A DNA stretch of 64,000 nt from Hydrogenophilales bacterium 16-64-40 (GTDB lineage Bacteria > Pseudomonadota > Gammaproteobacteria > Burkholderiales > Thiobacillaceae): contig NCGX01000004.1 of the NCBI GenBank assembly GCA_002256995.1, positions 83,528-147,527 of the forward strand, in the 5' to 3' direction. Each line of letters begins with the position of its first letter. Position 1 is the first letter of the stretch. Of the stretch, positions 14,880 to 25,127 are shown one piece after another. Made by a program: the position numbers and the translations under genes. The notes beneath the pieces are model-generated. The model searched no databases, was not told the origin of the DNA, and saw only the letters and a program-made list of their open reading frames with translations.

Positions 14880-16409
14880 TCATTGCTGCGCGTCGATGCG
14901 AACGATGTCAGCCCGTTCGTCGGCGGCGAGCGGCTCTTCCGTATCGAGTTGATGCTGCAGCACGGCGAGGTCGGCTTCCGAAGCGTCGCCGCCTGAACGT
15001 GCGCGCTGGACGATGCGCTCGCGCAGGGTGGCGAGGGGGACGGGGAAATCGAGGATACGAAATTCGACATCGCGCGTCCGCGCCACGTCGCGCAGCAGGT
15101 CGCGCTGCCAACGCGCGGTGAAAGTGGCGTCGACGATTGCCGGCCAGCCAGCATCGAGGATTTGGCCGGCCAGGTGCGCCAGATGCTTGTAGGTGTTCTG
15201 CGTGGCGTCGGCCGCGTACAAGTTTTCGCCGACGCCGGAGCCGCTGCGCGCCTGGGCGTCGAGTCCGGCGAGGCGCTTGCGTTCGACATCGGAGCGTAAG
15301 CGGATCGCCCCAGGCGTCTGCATCAGTTTTTGGGTGACGGTGGTCTTGCCGGAACCCGACAGGCCGTGGGTGACGTCGAGGCGGACGGGCAGGGGGCGCG
15401 TCAGGGTGGTGGCGAGGTTCAGCAGCGCGCGTACTTCGGCGAGCGCTGTATCGCGCTTGGCCCCGACGGTCTGCGCGCTGCGAATGGCAGCGACCTTGGC
15501 TCGCACCAGCGCGCGATACACCGCGTAGTAGCGGAGTAGCGCGGTCCCTGAGTAGTCGCCGGTGCGTTCCAGCCAGCCGTTGAGGAAGAGCCAAGCCCAG
15601 TCGGCATGGCCGCGTTGCAGCAGATCCATATAGCAGAACGCGACCTCGGACTGGATGTCGATCCAGCGCAGTTCGGGGTTGAATTCGATGCAGTCGAACA
15701 CCAGCAGCTGGCCATCGACCCAGGCGAGGTTGCCGAGGTGGAGATCGCCGTGGCATTCGCGCACGAAGCCGTCGCGCTTGCGCGCGGCCATCAGCGGCGA
15801 CAGGCGCGCATGCTCGGCTTCGCTCCAGCGCTGCAAAGCGTCCAACTGCTGCCGGTCGGCGGGGGCATCGAGGCGCGGGGCGATCTGCGCGAAGTTCTGC
15901 GCCACCGGCTGCCAGACCTTTTCCGGGTTGCCCCAGGGGCTGTCCAGCGCGGCGCGCTTGCAGCCTTCGAGATGGAAGCGGGCGAGGGTGGCGGCAATGG
16001 CTTCGACGTGTTGCGCGGTCATCCCGCCCTCGGTGTCGAGCCGGTCGAGCGTGGCGTCCGGCGGGAACTGGCGCATCTTCACCGCGTACTCGAAGGTCTC
16101 GCCGCTGCCGTTGACGCGCGGGGCGGCCGGGGTGCCGGTGATCGGCACCACGTCGAGGTAGATGGCGGGCGCGAGCCGCCGGTTGAGCTGCACTTCGTCG
16201 CAGCAGGCGTGCAGGCGCTTGTCGAGACTGCTGAAATCGAGGAAGCCGAGATTGAGCGGCTTCTTGATTTTGTAGGCGAATTCACCGGTGAGCAGGACCC
16301 AGGAAATATGGGTTTCGATCAGCCGGACCGGACCGGCCGCGTGGTCGTAGCAGGCCGGGGCCTGCAGGCCGCGGATCAGTTGAGGCAGATCGTCTTTCGA
16401 TCCCGGCAT
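14880..16409 (-). CDS. APH-like kinase domain fused to a P-loop ATPase
   Basis: A 509-residue two-domain protein. Residues 1-330 form an aminoglycoside-phosphotransferase-like domain with Brenner motif HGDLHLGN (220-227) and VFDCIEFN (Asp239). The C-terminal domain (340-509) is a P-loop kinase of the Zeta-toxin/AAA_33 type with Walker A GLSGSGKTT (349-357) and a conserved DATF stretch. The family is common in proteobacteria and annotated as bifunctional aminoglycoside phosphotransferase/ATP-binding protein; the true substrate is unknown. The gene at 24072 is a paralogue of the first domain alone. It lies 45 bp downstream of the DksA-type gene. Confidence 0.85.
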   Translation of the reverse strand: MPGSKDDLPQLIRGLQAPACYDHAAGPVRLIETHISWVLLTGEFAYKIKKPLNLGFLDFSSLDKRLHACCDEVQLNRRLAPAIYLDVVPITGTPAAPRVNGSGETFEYAVKMRQFPPDATLDRLDTEGGMTAQHVEAIAATLARFHLEGCKRAALDSPWGNPEKVWQPVAQNFAQIAPRLDAPADRQQLDALQRWSEAEHARLSPLMAARKRDGFVRECHGDLHLGNLAWVDGQLLVFDCIEFNPELRWIDIQSEVAFCYMDLLQRGHADWAWLFLNGWLERTGDYSGTALLRYYAVYRALVRAKVAAIRSAQTVGAKRDTALAEVRALLNLATTLTRPLPVRLDVTHGLSGSGKTTVTQKLMQTPGAIRLRSDVERKRLAGLDAQARSGSGVGENLYAADATQNTYKHLAHLAGQILDAGWPAIVDATFTARWQRDLLRDVARTRDVEFRILDFPVPLATLRERIVQRARSGGDASEADLAVLQHQLDTEEPLAADERADIVRIDAQQ

Positions 16410-16453
16410 CGTGATGTTTCCACTTTGACTCAATGGTGTGGATGGCAGCCGCA

Positions 16454-16852
16454 TCACATCTTCGGGTGCCCTTCCTGCGCATACTCCCTTTCGCGTTTTT
16501 CCTGGCACACGATGCAGCGCTTGGCGGTCGGGTAGGCCTGCCGGCGGGTAAAACCGACGTCATCCCCGCAGTCGGTGCACACGCCGTATTCCCCGTTCTT
16601 GATGCGCTGGAACGCGGCCTCGATATCGCGCATGCCCTGTATGTGGCGGTCCAGAATCGCCACGTTGAAGTCCGCCAAGGCGTTGGCCATCGACTCGTCG
16701 CCGGTGTCGCCAGGTTCGCTGTTGAGCAGGTCGATGCGATGCTGATCGCCCGAGTTTTCGAGTTCACTGCGCACTTCGCGCAACAGTACCTGGTTATCCT
16801 CGTTCAATCGCTTCGTGAGTTGATCAAGCTGGGACTGGTTAAGGGGTGCCAT
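16454..16852 (-). CDS. TraR/DksA family zinc-finger protein
   Basis: A 132-residue protein with an N-terminal coiled coil and a C-terminal C4 zinc finger (Cys92, Cys95, Cys113, Cys116; VCTDCG and RCIVCQ). This layout is that of DksA and relatives that insert into the RNA polymerase secondary channel. The acidic tip equivalent to DksA's DxxDxA is not obvious: the tip region reads ESMANALADFN. It is therefore likely a DksA-like regulator rather than DksA itself. Confidence 0.88.
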   Translation of the reverse strand: MAPLNQSQLDQLTKRLNEDNQVLLREVRSELENSGDQHRIDLLNSEPGDTGDESMANALADFNVAILDRHIQGMRDIEAAFQRIKNGEYGVCTDCGDDVGFTRRQAYPTAKRCIVCQEKREREYAQEGHPKM

Positions 16853-16935
16853 CGAACCTCCTGCGCATGTACGGTTGTAAATGAACCTGCTTCATGTATC
16901 CGGATAGCAAGCTCCTGTTTCAAGCATAAGCCAAA

Positions 16936-17685
16936 TCAGGACCTGCGCGTCCCGCTGCCTCTTAAATCCGGCAACGCACTCGCTGTGATTGCTTGACATA
17001 AAGATTCGACCACCAGGCTGCGCAGGGCACCCCATGGGCGCCCGCCGCGCAGGACATGCTTGTGATTGATTTCCAGTTCGATGCCGACATACGCGTCAGC
17101 CGGGAAGCGGCGACGCAGGAAGGCGGTTAAACCGTCCGACCTGCCCGTGTAGGGGTAATTGCGGCGCACCCTCCATTCAGGTGCCGACGTCTTGAGACAG
17201 GCCTGCCAGCGGCGGCACAGCTCGGCTTCGCCGGGTCGCGCCGGATCGTAGAGCAGGCCGATGTCGGCGTTGCGGACTTCACCGTCGAGTTCCGGCGTGA
17301 AACTGTGCGAGGAAAGGTGGATCACCCGGCTGCCGTGCGCAATGGCGTCGGCGATATGCGCCTCGACCTGGTTTCGGAAAGGCAGGTAATGCTGTTCCAG
17401 GATTTCGCGGCGAACGTTCGCCGGTGCATTCCGGGTGGCCTCGGAGTACAGGTGCGGATGGCCGATGGAGCGGTTGAGGTCGATCAGCAGGCGGCTGGTG
17501 GTGGAGACGAACAGCGGCGCGGCCAGCGCCCCGGCCATCTGCCGGGCCAGAGTCAGCGCACCGGGATCATAGCCGCGATGGCTGCGCAGCAATGCCTCGA
17601 ATCCCGCAAACAAGCTTGCGTAGCGGGGCGGAATGCGGTTGCCGCCATGCTCGCAGGTGATCAGGATGTGGTCTGGCCTTGCCAT
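16936..17685 (-). CDS. N-formylglutamate amidohydrolase family protein
   Basis: A 249-residue hydrolase with the family motifs ITCEHGGNRIP (residues 9-19), DLNRS and SSHSFTP. The family removes formyl or related acyl groups from N-substituted glutamate with a metal-bound water. It is the last gene of a four-gene operon (C39 peptidase, RimK-like ligase, GCS2 ligase, this gene) and starts three bases after the GCS2 stop codon. In this setting it probably trims or recycles a glutamate-containing product rather than serving histidine degradation, since no hut gene is nearby. That role is inference. Confidence 0.85.
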   Translation of the reverse strand: MARPDHILITCEHGGNRIPPRYASLFAGFEALLRSHRGYDPGALTLARQMAGALAAPLFVSTTSRLLIDLNRSIGHPHLYSEATRNAPANVRREILEQHYLPFRNQVEAHIADAIAHGSRVIHLSSHSFTPELDGEVRNADIGLLYDPARPGEAELCRRWQACLKTSAPEWRVRRNYPYTGRSDGLTAFLRRRFPADAYVGIELEINHKHVLRGGRPWGALRSLVVESLCQAITASALPDLRGSGTRRS

Positions 17686-17688
17686 GCC

Positions 17689-18930
17689 CTAGCTGCCGAC
17701 GAACAGCTTTCCCGCTTCCAGGCAGTCGCACAACTCGACGTAGACCGCGTGCGAGCGGTCTTTCGAGCACGCCGGGCCGACCGCCCGCAGGATGCGGCGG
17801 GCAAGCGGCCCGTGTTCCAGCATCACGCGCAAGGTCTCGACCCAGAAGGTGGAGCGGTTCAGCGCTGTCCGGTTGATGAGGTGCCGCCACAGTTCGCCCG
17901 CCCGATATTGCCGGTCGGACAAGCCGAGCAGCCGCAAATACCCGGCATCGTCGATCACCGCCTGATCGGCGTCGCGGATGCAGGCGAGCAGGATGTTCGC
18001 CAGGGCGTCGGTGCCGAAGGCCTGCTGCATGGCGAGCGTCGACCACTTGTCATCGTAGAGCGCCCGGATCACGGCGGTGGCGGCGGCGGCAATCGCAAGG
18101 TCTGCCTGCGGGCATTCCTGCACGTCGATCACGCGGATCTCGATGGCGTTGCGTTCGAAGCGCGGGATGGCGCCGCGGGCGTTGAGCCATTCGTGCCGCA
18201 ACACGCCCTCCGGGTCGAGCGGCGCGATGTCGCGGTACATGGGGTCCAACACCTGCGCCGCGTATTCGGCACGGCTGTTGAGCGTGTCCGGGATCACTTG
18301 GCCGATCACCGACGGCACCCTGCCAACTGCGGTGCGGTAGGCCTCCATGCGGCGGTCAAGCGCGCCGCCAGGCGCGCCGTCGGCGAAAGGGGAGCTGGCG
18401 GCGAGTGCCGGCAGGATGGGCAGCAGCAGCCGCACCGCGGCGTGCAGGCGGGCGAATTCGGCGTCGTTGGCGAAGGGCAGGTTGAGGTGCATGCTCTGCA
18501 GGTTGGCCTGGCCGTGCTGCCGGCAATCGAAGATGCGGTCGTAGGCCTGGAATATCGGCGCGTTGTCGTGGGGCCACAAACGCATTTCGGCGGCGGGGTC
18601 CATCCAGGGATGCATGGCGCCGGGCATGAGCCGCGCGCCCAGCGGATGCAGCAGGCGGTTGACCTGCTTGACCTCGGCCTGGAAGCCCGCCACCAGCGGT
18701 TCGAGCGCGGGATCGGGATGCTCGTTTTTGATTTCGACGAGATGCAGCACGATCTCGTTGGACCATCCGAATTTTCCACGGTCGACTGACGAAACAATCT
18801 GGCCGCCCGCGGCCGCTTGCAGCAGCGCGTCGGCAATCGGCATGACCGCAAGGGTTTGCCGGTCCACGATCATGTATTCCAGTTCGATGCCGTAGCCGGC
18901 AAACGCATGCAGCGCGGCGGCGGCTTCCAT
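17689..18930 (-). CDS. Glutamate-cysteine ligase family 2 (GCS2/YbdK-like) carboxylate-amine ligase
   Basis: A 413-residue ligase of the GCS2 superfamily. Near the N-terminus GIELEYMIVD carries the metal/ATP-binding acidic residues. LNLPFAND, HEWLNARGAIPRFERNAIEIRVIDVQ and the C-terminal helices fit the fold. Members make gamma-glutamyl or other amide bonds using ATP. It overlaps the stop of the RimK-like gene by one base and precedes the N-formylglutamate amidohydrolase by three. Two amide-forming ligases of different folds in one operon suggest stepwise synthesis of a small peptide or tag. The substrate is not known. Confidence 0.85.
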   Translation of the reverse strand: MEAAAALHAFAGYGIELEYMIVDRQTLAVMPIADALLQAAAGGQIVSSVDRGKFGWSNEIVLHLVEIKNEHPDPALEPLVAGFQAEVKQVNRLLHPLGARLMPGAMHPWMDPAAEMRLWPHDNAPIFQAYDRIFDCRQHGQANLQSMHLNLPFANDAEFARLHAAVRLLLPILPALAASSPFADGAPGGALDRRMEAYRTAVGRVPSVIGQVIPDTLNSRAEYAAQVLDPMYRDIAPLDPEGVLRHEWLNARGAIPRFERNAIEIRVIDVQECPQADLAIAAAATAVIRALYDDKWSTLAMQQAFGTDALANILLACIRDADQAVIDDAGYLRLLGLSDRQYRAGELWRHLINRTALNRSTFWVETLRVMLEHGPLARRILRAVGPACSKDRSHAVYVELCDCLEAGKLFVGS

Positions 18931-20399
18931 CAGGCGTTCACCCGCTTGCGCGCCTCGATGCGGCGCACGAACGAGCCCATGATCTCGCGGTAGAGGGCGT
19001 CCTTCAGCACGCCGTCCTCGTTGCCGGCGTCGACGTTGGGGTTGTCGTTGACCTCGATGACGTAGCAGCGGTTGCCGATCTGCTTGATGTCGACGCCGTA
19101 GAGGCCGTCACCGATCAGGTTGGCGGCCTTGAGGGCAATCTTCACCACTTCTTCCGGGGCTTCGGCCACCGCCACGGCCTTGACCGGGCCTTCCTGGTAG
19201 CCGGTGCGGCCGGGCTCGCGCTTGACGATTTGCCAGTGCCCGGCGGCCATGAAGTACCTGCACACGAACAGCGGCCGCCGGTCGAGGATGCCGACGCGCC
19301 AGTCGAACTCGGTGGGCAGCCATTCCTGCGCGACGATGAGCTCGGATTTCTGCATGAGTTCGTTCACCTTCACGAGCAATTCCGCTTCCGATTCCACCTT
19401 GGCCACGCCAACCGAGAACGAGCTGTCAGGCTGCTTCAACACGCAGGGCAGTCCGAGGCTAGAAACGATCTGGTCCACGTTGTCGTGGTGCACCATCAGC
19501 GTGCGCGGCGCGGGAATGTTGTGGCGGGTGAGCAGTTCGGCGAGATAGACCTTGTTGTTGCATTTAAGGATGGACTCGGGGTCGTCGATCACCACCAGGC
19601 CTTCCGCGCTCGCCCGTCTTGAAAAGCGATAGGTGTAGTGGTTGGCGAACGTGGTGTCGCGGATGAACAGCGCGTCGAACTCGGGCAGCCGGGCGAGATC
19701 GGCGCGGGTGATGAATTCCGCGGCGAGGCCGACGTCCTCCGCGGCCTTCTCGAATTTCTGCAGCGCACGCGGGTTGGAGGGCGATTCAGCATTGGCGGGG
19801 TCGTGCAGGATGGCGAGGTCGAAACGCGGCGCAGCCCGCTTGTGCGCGTGATGGCGGCGGCCCATGAAATAGGCGGTCGCGGCCTCCACCACGAAATCCT
19901 GATGCGACGGCGGGATGTCGCTGGCGGCGATGGCGCGCACGCTTCGGAGGCGCCACAGGTCGCGGCGACGCTCGAAATGGGCGCGCAGCAGGGGCGCCTG
20001 CAATCGGCTGAAGAGTTGATGGCTCAAGGCTTCGTGGCGGCTGGCCACGTTGCGGCCGAAGTAAATGCTGAGCTCGAACGTGTCCGACTTGATGGGGGCG
20101 AGCGACTTTTGCACCAGATCGTCGAGATCCTCGGTGAGCAGCCGCACCAGGTTCTGCGACTTCAGGTCCTCCATCGTGCTCACCTTCGGCAGCGGCTTGT
20201 GGCCGCGCGCCTCGGCCAGCAGGGAGACGTAGTAGCCGAGGCTCTGGTAACGGTAGGATTTGCACAGATTGAACACCTTGACCGGGCGCCCCTCGCCATA
20301 GGCGGGGGCGGTCAGATAGGCGCGCGCCGGGACGACGCTCACCCCGGGAAGGTCGAGCGGCCAGTCGCGCGGATTGTCGACGACGATGAGGATGCTCAC
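18930..20399 (-). CDS. RimK-like ATP-grasp ligase with N-terminal RimK-associated domain
   Basis: A 489-residue protein. The C-terminal 200 or so residues are an ATP-grasp domain: KVYLAELLTRHNIPAPRT, VLKQPDSSFSVG, and the metal-binding EVNDNPNVDAGNED. The first 160 or so residues form the separate domain found in long RimK-like proteins (NLCKSYRYQSLGYYVSLLAE). The best-known relative, RimK, adds glutamates to ribosomal protein S6. This longer form is different and typically sits with a C39-like peptidase and a GCS2 ligase. Start is GTG at 20397-20399, overlapping the peptidase stop by four bases. Confidence 0.88.
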   Translation of the reverse strand: MSILIVVDNPRDWPLDLPGVSVVPARAYLTAPAYGEGRPVKVFNLCKSYRYQSLGYYVSLLAEARGHKPLPKVSTMEDLKSQNLVRLLTEDLDDLVQKSLAPIKSDTFELSIYFGRNVASRHEALSHQLFSRLQAPLLRAHFERRRDLWRLRSVRAIAASDIPPSHQDFVVEAATAYFMGRRHHAHKRAAPRFDLAILHDPANAESPSNPRALQKFEKAAEDVGLAAEFITRADLARLPEFDALFIRDTTFANHYTYRFSRRASAEGLVVIDDPESILKCNNKVYLAELLTRHNIPAPRTLMVHHDNVDQIVSSLGLPCVLKQPDSSFSVGVAKVESEAELLVKVNELMQKSELIVAQEWLPTEFDWRVGILDRRPLFVCRYFMAAGHWQIVKREPGRTGYQEGPVKAVAVAEAPEEVVKIALKAANLIGDGLYGVDIKQIGNRCYVIEVNDNPNVDAGNEDGVLKDALYREIMGSFVRRIEARKRVNA

Positions 20400-21130
20400 G
20401 CTGCCCCCTTCGGCGCCGCCTGGGGCGGGTAAATGACCAGCAGGTTGGCGTCATGGGTGACGATGCCGAGCAGCACCGCGCCGATCACGCGATCGATGCT
20501 GACCCAGTATTCGTGCGAGGGACTGTAGGGGTGCAAGCCGTAGGGGTCGGCCACCAGCACGCTGCGCTTCTTGCGGTCGTAGCCCGCGATCACCACAAAG
20601 TGCCCGGCCGGCAGGCCGCGAATGTCGTCCGGCACATCGTCCGGCCCGTATTCGCGCGCCGCGCGGTACAGGTAGGTGGAACTCAGGCCGGTGATGATGG
20701 GCAGGTTGCGGCGCAGCAGGCCGCGGATCAAGGGACGCGAGAGATCGGTCAGGCGCAGGCGCCCACCCAGGCGCAGGAATTCCAGGTAACCCTCGGTGAC
20801 GTGCTGCAGCCTGGCGTCATGTTTCTTCTCCCCGCGCTGGCGCTCGAGGCGCTCGGCGATGTCCACCCCTGGCGCAAACCAGGTGGGGTCGAACACCGTC
20901 AGGTTGTAGCTGTAGATGGTGGCTTGGTAGCCCTGGCGCAGGGCATCGCAGGCCAGGAAAATCGCAAAGGTGCCGCCGTGTTCCAGCTTGCGGGTGCGGG
21001 CGATCACCCCCGCAAGCGGCACTTCCTCGCCCCAGTAGCGATAGACGGCATGCAGGCAGGTCGGGCCGCAGGTCGTCTCGTCCGGTTGCGGCAGCATCTT
21101 GACCGGCAAACGCAAGATGATCGGATGCAT
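20396..21130 (-). CDS. Peptidase C39-like (papain-fold) protein
   Basis: A 244-residue protein with a bacteriocin-processing-like papain fold. The catalytic triad can be placed at Cys21 (TTCGPTC), His177 (PAGHFVVI) and Asp195 (VADPYG). No signal peptide, ABC or membrane domain is present, so it is a free cytoplasmic protease or transpeptidase, not a C39 exporter. It is the first gene of the four-gene amidoligase operon and overlaps the RimK-like gene by four bases. It may process the substrate of the ligases or act as a deconjugating enzyme. No small precursor peptide gene is obvious next to it. Confidence 0.85.
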   Translation of the reverse strand: MHPIILRLPVKMLPQPDETTCGPTCLHAVYRYWGEEVPLAGVIARTRKLEHGGTFAIFLACDALRQGYQATIYSYNLTVFDPTWFAPGVDIAERLERQRGEKKHDARLQHVTEGYLEFLRLGGRLRLTDLSRPLIRGLLRRNLPIITGLSSTYLYRAAREYGPDDVPDDIRGLPAGHFVVIAGYDRKKRSVLVADPYGLHPYSPSHEYWVSIDRVIGAVLLGIVTHDANLLVIYPPQAAPKGAA

Positions 21131-21218
21131 GAAGCAGGCTTCGCCTAAAAGCTACTCGGGTTGCCCGACCGGATGGACGGCGACGGCACCCCGTCGCTGC
21201 CCCGAAAACACCCGGCTG

Positions 21219-21713
21219 CTAGCGTTCCCACACCACGCGCAGCAGGTTCTCCTGCTCGTTGTAGTGATATTTCAGTTCGCCCTGATAGGCATGGTGCAGC
21301 GCCTCGCCGATGCCGCGGGCGAGATGGATGTCAGTGGTGGTGATCTCGACGCCGTCGTCCTGATCCTCGATGTTCATGATCCGCTTCAGGGGATGCTCGG
21401 CCTTTGCGCGTTCTTCCTCGTTCCTGGCCAGGTGCAGCAACTCCTCGCGGTGATCCTTGAAGAACGCACCGCTCACGGTCACATAGCCGGCCGGGAATTC
21501 GTCCTGAATGCGATGACAGGCCGGGCACATTTCCTCGTGGGCCCCGGCAGGCTTTGTCAGCCATTGCCAGCGCCCGTCGTGGAACACGGCGGCGCATTGC
21601 GGGCATACCGTGGGTTCCGGCAGCTTGTGCTTGGCCTTGTAGGCGTCGTGCCGGTCTTCCTGGACCAGACGGTCGCGCCGGACAGGGTGGAATTCAGTGA
21701 ATCGGTTTTTCAT
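21219..21713 (-). CDS. BCAM0308-like zinc-ribbon protein
   Basis: A 164-residue protein with a CxxC pair (VCPQCAAVF) and a second pair (MCPACHRI) forming a zinc ribbon in the first half, and an acidic, NIEDQDDGVEITTTD-type C-terminal part. It resembles the BCAM0308 family of small conserved proteins in betaproteobacteria; function unknown. AGGAG upstream sets the start at 21713. It lies 88 bp upstream of the C39-like gene on the same strand, so it may be cotranscribed with the amidoligase operon, though the gap leaves this open. Confidence 0.7.
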   Translation of the reverse strand: MKNRFTEFHPVRRDRLVQEDRHDAYKAKHKLPEPTVCPQCAAVFHDGRWQWLTKPAGAHEEMCPACHRIQDEFPAGYVTVSGAFFKDHREELLHLARNEEERAKAEHPLKRIMNIEDQDDGVEITTTDIHLARGIGEALHHAYQGELKYHYNEQENLLRVVWER

Positions 21714-21747
21714 CTTGCGCTCCTGTGTTGACACATAAAAAGTTGAC

Positions 21748-22643
21748 TTAAATCCACTCCTTTTCCGCGGCGGCGCGCTGTTCTCCCCACAGTGCGCCCG
21801 GCGGCAGATCGAGCACGGAATGCGCGCCCGCCTGGAGAAACGGCAATGCGCGCGCTGCGGCAAGCATCATCCGCGCGGCGAGCCCCGCCTCGTCGTAGCG
21901 GGCTTCCAGCAAAAAAGCGGCATGGCCGGTGTCTGCCGGCGCGGCGCGGCGTTCGAGCGTCACGCCATGGCTGGCGGCTTCCAGCGCGGCGAGGCGGGGA
22001 ACCGGGAAGACCAGGGTCTGTTCATCGAGAAAGAGGGGGTCATGAACGATGGCATCGGTCACGGCCGCCGCGTCGGCCGAGGGCTCCAGTTCAACATAGA
22101 CGTAGCGCTGGGGGTGGCCTTCCACCGAGCGGGATTCCGTCGCCAGCGCCTGTCTCACCCCCGGGATGTCCGTTGCCGCCAGCGTGTGGTGCAGGCTCGG
22201 CACGATGTGCCGGCTGGTTTCCGTATGCCCGCCGGGCGCCAGCAGCGCGAAATGGCTGCGTAACAGGGAGAAGACGCCGGGGTCGCATCCCGCGCCGACG
22301 ACGGCCGGCAACTTGTGATGGAGCGCGGCGCGATGGATTTCAGCCTTGTGTGCGAGGAACGCCTCGCCGTGGAGGCGCGCGCATTCCACCACCGGAATGC
22401 GGCTCTGCAGCAGGTCTTTCGCGATCCCCAAGACCGCGTCGAGCGGCACGCAAATGAGCGCGGCATCGACCTCGTTCAGTTCGCTGATGTGGGTCACGGC
22501 AGGGCTTTCAACCAGGAAGCCGGCGCGCTGCCCGGGCGCTGCACCACCCCCGCCAGAACGCTGGCCGGGTCGGCCTGGATGGCTTCGGCGCATTGGCGTC
22601 CCACATTTCCCGGACCGATGATGGCAAGCCGTGTTTTTTTCAT
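21748..22643 (-). CDS. Diaminopimelate dehydrogenase-like protein, frameshifted
   Basis: The gene starts at 22643 with a clear Rossmann fold (LAIIGPGNVGRQCAEAI). After VVQRPG the reading frame must change, at about 22531-22536 (CCCGGG), to continue with PAVTHISELNEVDAALICVP and the substrate domain. One missing base in this run restores a smooth 298-residue protein. It resembles meso-diaminopimelate dehydrogenase, an NADPH enzyme of lysine/peptidoglycan precursor metabolism. GAGCDPGVFSLLRS and VPSLHHT fit that family, but substrate is unproven. Read without correction the protein ends after about 49 residues. Whether this is decay or a sequencing error cannot be decided here. Confidence 0.7.
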
Positions 22644-22651
22644 GTTGTGAT

Positions 22652-22678
22652 GCCGACACTGGTCGGCTCGTTTTTTTT
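22652..22678 (+). terminator. Hairpin followed by eight T's, terminator-like on the plus strand
   Basis: GCCGAC (22652-22657) pairs with GTCGGC (22662-22667) around ACTG, then TCG and a run of eight T's (22671-22678). This is a good intrinsic terminator shape on the plus strand, but the genes on both sides are on the minus strand. There it lies in the leader of the DAP-dehydrogenase-like gene. It may stop antisense transcription. Confidence 0.5.
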
Positions 22679-24071: not shown

Positions 24072-25127
24072 ATGGACAAAAGCTGCCCCCCACGCGTTTC
24101 GAACCGGCCGGAGCAGGCCGCCGTCAGCCTCGAAGCCAAGCTCGGCTTCCTCGGCCGCCCGGATGCCTACCCCGAGGCGCCGGCGCGGGTGGACGCGGTG
24201 GAGACCCATATGTCCTGGGTTTTCCTCATCGATTCCCATGCCTACAAGCTGAAAAAGCCGGTGCGCTACGACTACCTCGACTTCAGCACGGTCGAGGCGC
24301 GGCGCCTCGACTGCGAGGCGGAAGTTCGGCTCAACCGTCGCCTCGCCGCCGAGGTCTACCTGGGGGTGGTTCCGCTGGTGCTGGACGCGGCAGGCCGCTT
24401 GCGCCTGGACGGGGCCGGCGAGACCGTCGACTGGCTGGTGCGGATGCGGCGGCTGCCGGCGAACCGCATGCTCGACCAGCTGCTGCGCAACGGCGCGGTC
24501 GAGCAGCCGGAAATCAGGCGGCTCGCCCAGCGGCTTGCCAGTTTCTACGCCGCGCTGCCCGCGGAACCGTTCACGCCCGAGGCGTATCGGCAAGCCCTGG
24601 CCGGGCGGATCGAGGACAACCTGCGCGAACTCGGCAGCCCGGAATTCGGCCTGCCCCCCGAGATGCCGGCGGCGCTCGCCCGCTCTCAGCTGCGCTTCCT
24701 GCAAAGCCACGCCGATTTGTTCGACCAGCGTGTGCAGGCGGGCCGCATCGTCGAGGGCCATGGCGACCTGCGGCCGGAGCATGTGTGCCTGCTGGCCGAA
24801 CCGATCGTCATCGATTGCCTGGAATTCAACCGCGAATTCCGCATTCTCGATCCGGCCGACGAACTGGGGTATCTGGCGCTGGAGTGCGAGCGGCTGCACG
24901 CGCCGCAAGCGGCCCGCTGGCTGCTGGACGGCTATGTCGAAGCGAGCGGCGATGCGCCGCCTCCGGCGATGCTGCATTTCTACCAGAGTTGCCGGGCGAT
25001 GCTGCGCGCCAAGCTGGCCCTCTGGCACCTGCGCGACGACGGGCGGCATCGGCCGGAAAAATGGCTTGCCACGGCCAGGGACTACCTCGAATGGGCGCAA
25101 CGGCACGCCGACTCGGCCGCAGGCTGA
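24072..25127 (+). CDS. APH-like kinase domain protein
   Basis: A 351-residue protein of the aminoglycoside-phosphotransferase-like family with HGDLRPEH (230-237) and VIDCLEFN (Asp248). It matches the N-terminal domain of the fusion protein at 14880 (compare THMSWVFLIDSHAYKLKKP with THISWVLLTGEFAYKIKKP), but lacks the second P-loop ATPase domain. In the catalytic loop the usual Asn after HGDLxxxN is replaced by His (HGDLRPEH), so kinase activity is in doubt. Substrate unknown. It converges on the PRPP synthetase gene with six bases between them. Confidence 0.82.
   Translation: MDKSCPPRVSNRPEQAAVSLEAKLGFLGRPDAYPEAPARVDAVETHMSWVFLIDSHAYKLKKPVRYDYLDFSTVEARRLDCEAEVRLNRRLAAEVYLGVVPLVLDAAGRLRLDGAGETVDWLVRMRRLPANRMLDQLLRNGAVEQPEIRRLAQRLASFYAALPAEPFTPEAYRQALAGRIEDNLRELGSPEFGLPPEMPAALARSQLRFLQSHADLFDQRVQAGRIVEGHGDLRPEHVCLLAEPIVIDCLEFNREFRILDPADELGYLALECERLHAPQAARWLLDGYVEASGDAPPPAMLHFYQSCRAMLRAKLALWHLRDDGRHRPEKWLATARDYLEWAQRHADSAAG

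Follow-up and report, generated by a model that had tools for sequence, protein, structure and literature searches.

The closest described systems are those built around RLAN-RimK amidoligases. In these an adjacent GNAT is found, often fused to C39, as the Pfam text on RLAN sets out. Iyer et al. are said to have predicted in 2009 that RLAN neighbourhoods serve peptide synthesis, with GCS2 as an occasional neighbour. The four-gene cassette described here is a variant of these RLAN-RimK systems, and so of something reportedly already predicted in 2009. As at 20 of the 32 classic RLAN loci read, RLAN-RimK stands beside a papain-fold enzyme. Unlike those systems, the cassette has a stand-alone C39 protein of another subfamily and no GNAT, GCS2 and an N-formylglutamate-amidohydrolase-family hydrolase (FGase) are regular parts of it, and its RLAN lies across a fully supported branch.

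Similar enzymes are also paired in other pathways. Glutamylation of S6 by RimK-RimB likewise involves a RimK-type ATP-grasp ligase with a peptidase partner (PMC12239564, PMC10092738). RimB, as described in these sources, is an aspartic peptidase, whereas the cassette has a papain-fold enzyme, an RLAN domain, GCS2 and FGase, and its ligase does not reach the RimK cut-off. The Rlo operon of Pseudomonas (RloA peptidase, RloB and the ATP-grasp protein RloC) resembles the cassette in having an ATP-grasp gene beside a peptidase gene, but the peptidase is aspartic, RloB is a membrane protein, and GCS2 and FGase are not among the genes that the source names (PMC12239564). A papain-fold enzyme shares one pathway with an ATP-grasp ligase in the case of the butirosin acyl/peptidyl transferase BtrH (PMC10318531), and of CtaG, with CtaD, in closthioamide synthesis (PMC6772006). 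Both of these pathways use carrier proteins according to those accounts, but none was found conserved at cassette loci. DUF3335 is described as often fused to GNAT (PMC10318531). Glutathione synthesis (GCS and the ATP-grasp enzyme GshB) also combines a GCS-family with an ATP-grasp ligase, but the subfamilies differ. A literature search, with most subscription papers outside its scope, found no study of the four-gene cassette among the papers listed.

The window (the whole 64-kb stretch of DNA analysed) belongs to a sulfur-oxidising relative of Thiobacillus, and the nearest relatives of its GCS2 and RLAN are Thiobacillus records. Read 5' to 3', the cassette runs C39, RLAN-RimK, GCS2, FGase, all on the minus strand from 21130 to 16936:

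20396..21130, minus strand: C39-like papain-fold cysteine peptidase or transferase, 244 aa, stand-alone, Pfam PF13529
18930..20399, minus strand: RLAN-RimK ATP-grasp ligase, 489 aa, GTG start, Pfam RLAN PF14401 and RimK
17689..18930, minus strand: GCS2-type carboxylate-amine ligase, 413 aa, Pfam PF04107
16936..17685, minus strand: N-formylglutamate-amidohydrolase-family hydrolase (FGase), 249 aa, Pfam PF05013

The C39 and RLAN-RimK genes overlap by 4 nt and RLAN-RimK and GCS2 by 1 nt, and a 3-nt gap separates GCS2 from FGase. An earlier note on this DNA had described four genes in one direction, overlapping or no more than 3 nt apart, and the coordinates and strand agree on re-reading, as do its four family names with Pfam (Peptidase_C39_2, RimK, GCS2 and FGase). 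Its "RimK-like ATP-grasp ligase" does carry a RimK domain, but the note had missed the RLAN domain (residues 25-172), which is the mark identifying the system. No two cassette proteins were found fused in one ORF among the loci read, and none of the four reaches an NCBIfam cut-off. A known anti-phage defence was rejected, since the PADLOC models gave no match to the four proteins at E 0.001.

The hallmark of RLAN-RimK amidoligases, an RLAN domain fused to a RimK-type ATP-grasp domain, is present in the cassette ligase (RLAN 8e-51, 172 bits against a cut-off of 25; RimK 2.6e-10, 40.7 bits against 21). Membership of the curated RimK model NF007764 was rejected, as the ligase scores 33.3 bits against a cut-off of 331. 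The earlier note had named modification of S6 alone as a ground against a separate system, and here the ligase stands far from that model. The structural model of the ligase (pLDDT 85) best matches RimK, LysX/ArgX and D-Ala-D-Ala ligases, with 294-335 of the 489 columns covered in the 50 matches listed, which assign no fold to the RLAN domain. K283, K322, Q358, R368, D437, E449 and N451 are identical in 75/75 aligned proteins. Of the four PF08443 matches in the own genome, those to the GshB-type gene and to the cassette ligase are the strongest and the remaining two are weak (21-23 bits), so that this model shows no clear separate RimK. A plasmid search with the ligase returned 11 records, all under 60% identity.

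The second ligase, the product of the only GCS2 gene in the genome, matches its Pfam family at 3e-24 (86 bits, cut-off 21). An alignment with E. coli YbdK takes in its IELE, HP, H148 and IEIRVID motifs, with the modest support of an hhalign probability of 51, and its matches to solved structures by sequence are weak. The cut-offs of curated glutamate-cysteine ligase and YbdK models are not reached (TIGR02050, 52.7 versus 176.4 bits; PRK13515, 53.6 versus 371 bits). E59, E66, H107, N150, E264 and R266 are identical in 88/88 aligned proteins, E16 and E18 are present in 86/88 (two gaps) and H148 in 82/88. The FGase matches its family at 4e-24 (86.3 bits, cut-off 28.9) and PDB 2odf at 3.5e-39, with the CEH, HSF and RRNxPY motifs aligned. 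E12, H13, N176, E203 and E205 are identical in 71/71 aligned proteins, H127 in 70/71 and D184 in 66/71. Where such conserved cassette residues are called catalytic, the label comes from family knowledge and from the alignments to YbdK (modest support) and 2odf.

The C39 protein matches Peptidase_C39_2 at 9e-12, has no GNAT domain and belongs to a different C39 subfamily from the GNAT-fused C39. As the papain-fold partner of RLAN-RimK it has an intact set of putative catalytic residues (Gln15, Cys21, His177 and Asp195), all four identical in 76/76 aligned cassette C39 proteins; the triad Cys21-His177-Asp195 had been read correctly in the earlier note. The best fold matches of its AlphaFold model (pLDDT 84) are the C39 domains of PCAT1/ComA and the phytochelatin synthase Alr0975, with TM by query of 0.38-0.48, and the weaker ones include CtaG structures at ranks 37 and 49. 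By sequence its matches to solved structures are weak. With C39 peptidases as well as phytochelatin synthase among its structural neighbours, the enzyme could equally be a transferase as a peptidase.

A contig scan with the GCS2 alignment confirmed 207 relatives, and the best 80 of the 207 loci were kept; as they were fetched through GCS2, the presence of that gene is by construction. All four genes occur in the same order at 53 of the 80, among them L101, where the FGase lies 5.2 kb further on. The idea of a separate system, which the earlier note had tied to the four genes being kept as a cluster across genomes, is supported by these 53/80 ordered loci. Starts lie at most 60 nt from the preceding stop in 64/65, 68/73 and 53/65 pairs, with starts trimmed to the profile. 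Phylum labels among the 53 are Pseudomonadota, Thermodesulfobacteriota, Planctomycetota, Balneolota and Sumerlaeota, although many of the records are MAGs whose taxon labels can be wrong (L085, labelled Rhizobium, groups with Thiobacillus). The Verrucomicrobiota records each miss one cassette gene. Distances among the four proteins are correlated (r 0.74-0.89 over 51 loci), which may only mirror species history.

Among the other 27 loci, 12 lack only FGase, 5 only C39 and 5 only RLAN, 3 consist of RLAN and GCS2 and 2 of GCS2 and FGase. Nineteen are explained by contig ends (7), dispersal (6) or an FGase elsewhere in the genome (6), with L110 showing both a contig end and an FGase elsewhere, and at least one gene is unaccounted for in the remaining 8 (L081, L128, L130, L132, L142, L143, L154 and L159). 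The five loci with C39, GCS2 and FGase and no RLAN belong to Nitrosovibrio (L098) and Nitrosospira (L108, L111, L115 and L120). RLAN-RimK was found elsewhere in all five of these genomes, inside the cassette group of the tree, and the 12-13 kb read around it held no match to C39 or GNAT-C39. In the Pirellulales genome of L138 the cassette is split between two sites, one with GCS2-FGase and one with C39-RLAN. Because the genes stay in the genome after leaving the operon, the four probably serve one pathway. The FGase may be dispensable to the cassette: of the 15 genomes without a copy at the locus, 8 carry a cassette-type FGase at another place, and none was found in the remaining 7, several of which are MAGs.

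RLAN was found in 72 of 398 Pseudomonadota genomes, the own genome included, and its surroundings were read in 32 of the 71 others. At 31 of these 32 classic loci a GNAT of one family lies beside or near RLAN, 20 times fused to C39 in one ORF and 11 times alone; L051 has neither GNAT nor GNAT-C39. As 15 of the 20 fusions built the profile, the independent cases are 5 fusions, 11 GNATs and the one miss. At L079 the RLAN ORF itself also has a GNAT match. None of the 32 loci carries the cassette GCS2, C39 or FGase, and the cassette C39 profile matched 0/71 of the other RLAN-positive genomes and 3/3 cassette controls. Pfam finds no GNAT in the cassette operon, and in 50 of the 80 cassette genomes no GNAT-C39 fusion covering both domains was found among the matches listed. 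The GNAT-C39 profile matched in 49 of the 50, the best listed at 62 bits and in the GNAT part only, as ordinary acetyltransferases would; a match from 17 to 204 of 382 in G452 runs through stop codons. In the RLAN tree (quick method, unrooted) a branch with 100% SH-aLRT separates the 32 classic sequences from 75 cassette or dispersed ones.

This suggests two versions of RLAN systems, a GNAT-type and a GCS2/FGase-type, and the split provides two independent handles on RLAN-RimK chemistry. That GNAT is missing where GCS2 and FGase occur would point to a changed cap chemistry. It is conceivable, though unlikely, that both are one peptide-building machine in two versions, with GNAT capping the product in the common one, and here GCS2 adding a gamma-glutamyl cap that the FGase-family enzyme removes. 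If so, glutamyl-capped peptides of a new class would serve as metabolites or cofactors in bacteria of several phyla.

For the cassette as a whole we tentatively favour, as a reading with a little under an even chance of being right, a self-contained route in the cytosol that needs neither NRPS nor tRNA and in which a short glutamyl peptide or pseudopeptide is both made and turned over, on an acceptor common to every cell. Amide bonds are expected from the two ligases, whose folds are unrelated, and their breakage or exchange from the two hydrolase-fold enzymes. GCS2 would link an amine to a carboxylate, for which the gamma-carboxyl of glutamate is the likeliest candidate, and RLAN-RimK would activate a carboxylate with ATP and add an alpha-amino acid, with Glu the likeliest. 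At Cys21 the papain-fold enzyme would form an acyl-enzyme and either cleave the product or pass it to another amine; the FGase-family enzyme would hydrolyse an N-acyl-glutamate bond, in cap removal or product recycling. It is plausible that peptidase and amidohydrolase trim or remove the product, as the earlier note had supposed. Glutamate would be the building unit by analogy with the habits of the RimK, GCS2 and FGase families. The sequences show the genes, their families, the putative active-site residues that are conserved, the kept order and the co-retention; we infer the substrates, product, step order and location, as well as a small molecule instead of a protein tag. A small glutamyl product is preferred because small molecules are what the GCS2 and FGase families work on, and because no acceptor gene was found to travel with the cassette, although the latter is also compatible with a ubiquitous protein. 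There are precedents: the synthesis of E-64 needs no NRPS and relies on an ATP-grasp enzyme and an amide synthetase (PMC12568646), and RimK makes free poly-alpha-glutamate besides tagging S6 (PMC12239564). A four-enzyme unit that keeps its order in several phyla and has conserved active sites suggests that a small molecule or a protein modification is still to be discovered, and the cassette is small enough for whole reconstitution in vitro or in E. coli, so that the question of the RLAN-RimK product is testable.

The search for an acceptor bears on this preference. Small ORFs (20-120 codons, no further than 1 kb from the cassette), compared by blastp at E 1e-4 and with a minimum of 4 loci, formed no family common beyond close relatives, in line with the earlier failure to see a small precursor nearby, with the limit that a very short peptide or an unlinked precursor could escape this test. 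Nor was a fifth conserved gene found outside close relatives, except for a generic PAS-GGDEF-EAL protein at varying places. The widest flanking family (16/81 loci) is a kinase-like gene beside Thiobacillus-type, Nitrosospira and Nitrosovibrio loci, and the second (12/81) is that PAS-GGDEF-EAL signalling protein. The cassette thus seems not to bring its own acceptor. If the acceptor were a ubiquitous protein, the lack of a precursor would follow just as well, and it is possible, though on balance rather unlikely, that RLAN-RimK and GCS2 put a glutamyl tag on a housekeeping protein and that C39 and FGase remove it. However, with 33 of 331 bits the ligase falls far short of the RimK model and it has the extra RLAN domain, and what is known of the GCS2 and FGase families also speaks for small molecules. 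For tagging there are described parallels: the Glu that RimK attaches to RpsF can be removed in vitro by RimB, as reported in PMC12239564, and the Anbu operon (ATP-grasp, alphaE, transglutaminase-like and Anbu) is a proposed, as yet unconfirmed, protein tagger in the account of PMC6376114.

A second route to a glutathione-like compound, in which GCS2 takes the part of GshA and the ATP-grasp enzyme that of GshB, beside a C39 resembling phytochelatin synthase, would use the same two kinds of ligase, and phytochelatin synthase is among the best structural matches of the C39 model. However, the own genome has GshA (PF08886, 679 bits) and a GshB-type ATP domain (PF02955, 238 bits), 387 bp apart on contig 64, and GCS2 reaches no NCBIfam glutamate-cysteine ligase cut-off. 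Glutathione synthesis was rejected on account of these separate genes, and the wider, glutathione-like route is improbable. RiPP-type (graspetide-like) modification, in which a ribosomal precursor would lose its leader to C39, could draw on the co-occurrence of a C39-fold enzyme with an ATP-grasp ligase and on the weak match of the C39 profile to the leader peptidases ComA and PCAT. It is likewise improbable given that no precursor peptide gene was found beside the ligase in the small-ORF search. That the FGase serves histidine degradation as a chance neighbour of unrelated ligases has only the family name in its favour and was rejected as far as genome completeness allows, there being no match to histidine ammonia-lyase (HutH, PF00221) in the own genome (the control matched in 5/14 genomes), and FGase following GCS2 in loci of several phyla.

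In preference to these alternatives we tentatively retain the small glutamyl product. Seen across the genus, the cassette is an accessory block: 8 of the 36 genus genomes examined, the own genome included, have RLAN, and 31 of 56 have the upstream LXA gene; C39 and RLAN follow LXA at 17 of the 30 LXA loci read. L210 and L206 have no cassette after LXA, and the next gene there is the DksA-like gene and the AAA gene, respectively. In the window, copies of a 17-nt inverted repeat lie on both sides of the cassette, the downstream copy not being seen in the relatives inspected. The promoter scan gave no sigma-70-like site, and terminator-like sites number 7 versus 3.2 expected.

Several genes lie around the four-gene cassette (C39, RLAN-RimK, GCS2 and FGase) in the window:
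14880-16508, minus strand, gene with APH and AAA_33 domains, on one flank of the cassette
21219-21809, minus strand, gene for a BCAM0308-family (lxa) protein, immediately upstream of the cassette
21748-22659, minus strand, gene whose product matches the diaminopimelate-dehydrogenase model TIGR01921 below its cut-off
24072-25127, plus strand, gene without a Pfam match, on the flank opposite 14880-16508

The lxa gene is present in 31 of 56 genomes from the host's genus, and C39 and RLAN come after it in 17 of the 30 lxa loci read. The neighbouring gene at 21748-22659 also adjoins the cassette in genus relatives; its protein scored 63.6 bits against TIGR01921, below the cut-off of 180.6, and had no match in a Pfam search. 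A Pfam search at 1e-5 likewise gave no match for the 24072-25127 protein. At the corresponding position in four other loci (L040, L041, L043 and L044) lies a gene resembling that at 14880-16508, with 32-37% identity.

The cassette is bounded almost exactly by an inverted repeat, the downstream arm of which was looked for in 11 relatives and seen in none:
16886-16902 and 21122-21138, arms of a 17-nt inverted repeat, 94% complementary, the right arm overlapping the start of C39

Many of the named cassette carriers among the best 80 of 207 GCS2 relatives (L080-L159) are lithotrophs or anaerobes, including Thiobacillus, Nitrosomonas, Nitrosospira, Nitrotoga, Desulfobacteraceae and Geobacteraceae, a pattern to which sampling bias may contribute. 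Five Nitrosovibrio/Nitrosospira cassettes (L098, L108, L111, L115 and L120) lack the ATP-grasp gene at the locus, and in these genomes it is located elsewhere. A further RLAN gene lies in L079, a locus outside those 80:
L079:6282-8285, plus strand, RLAN ORF of 667 aa

This ORF also matches the GNAT part of a profile built from fused GNAT and C39 ORFs, and is a possible RLAN-RimK-GNAT fusion.
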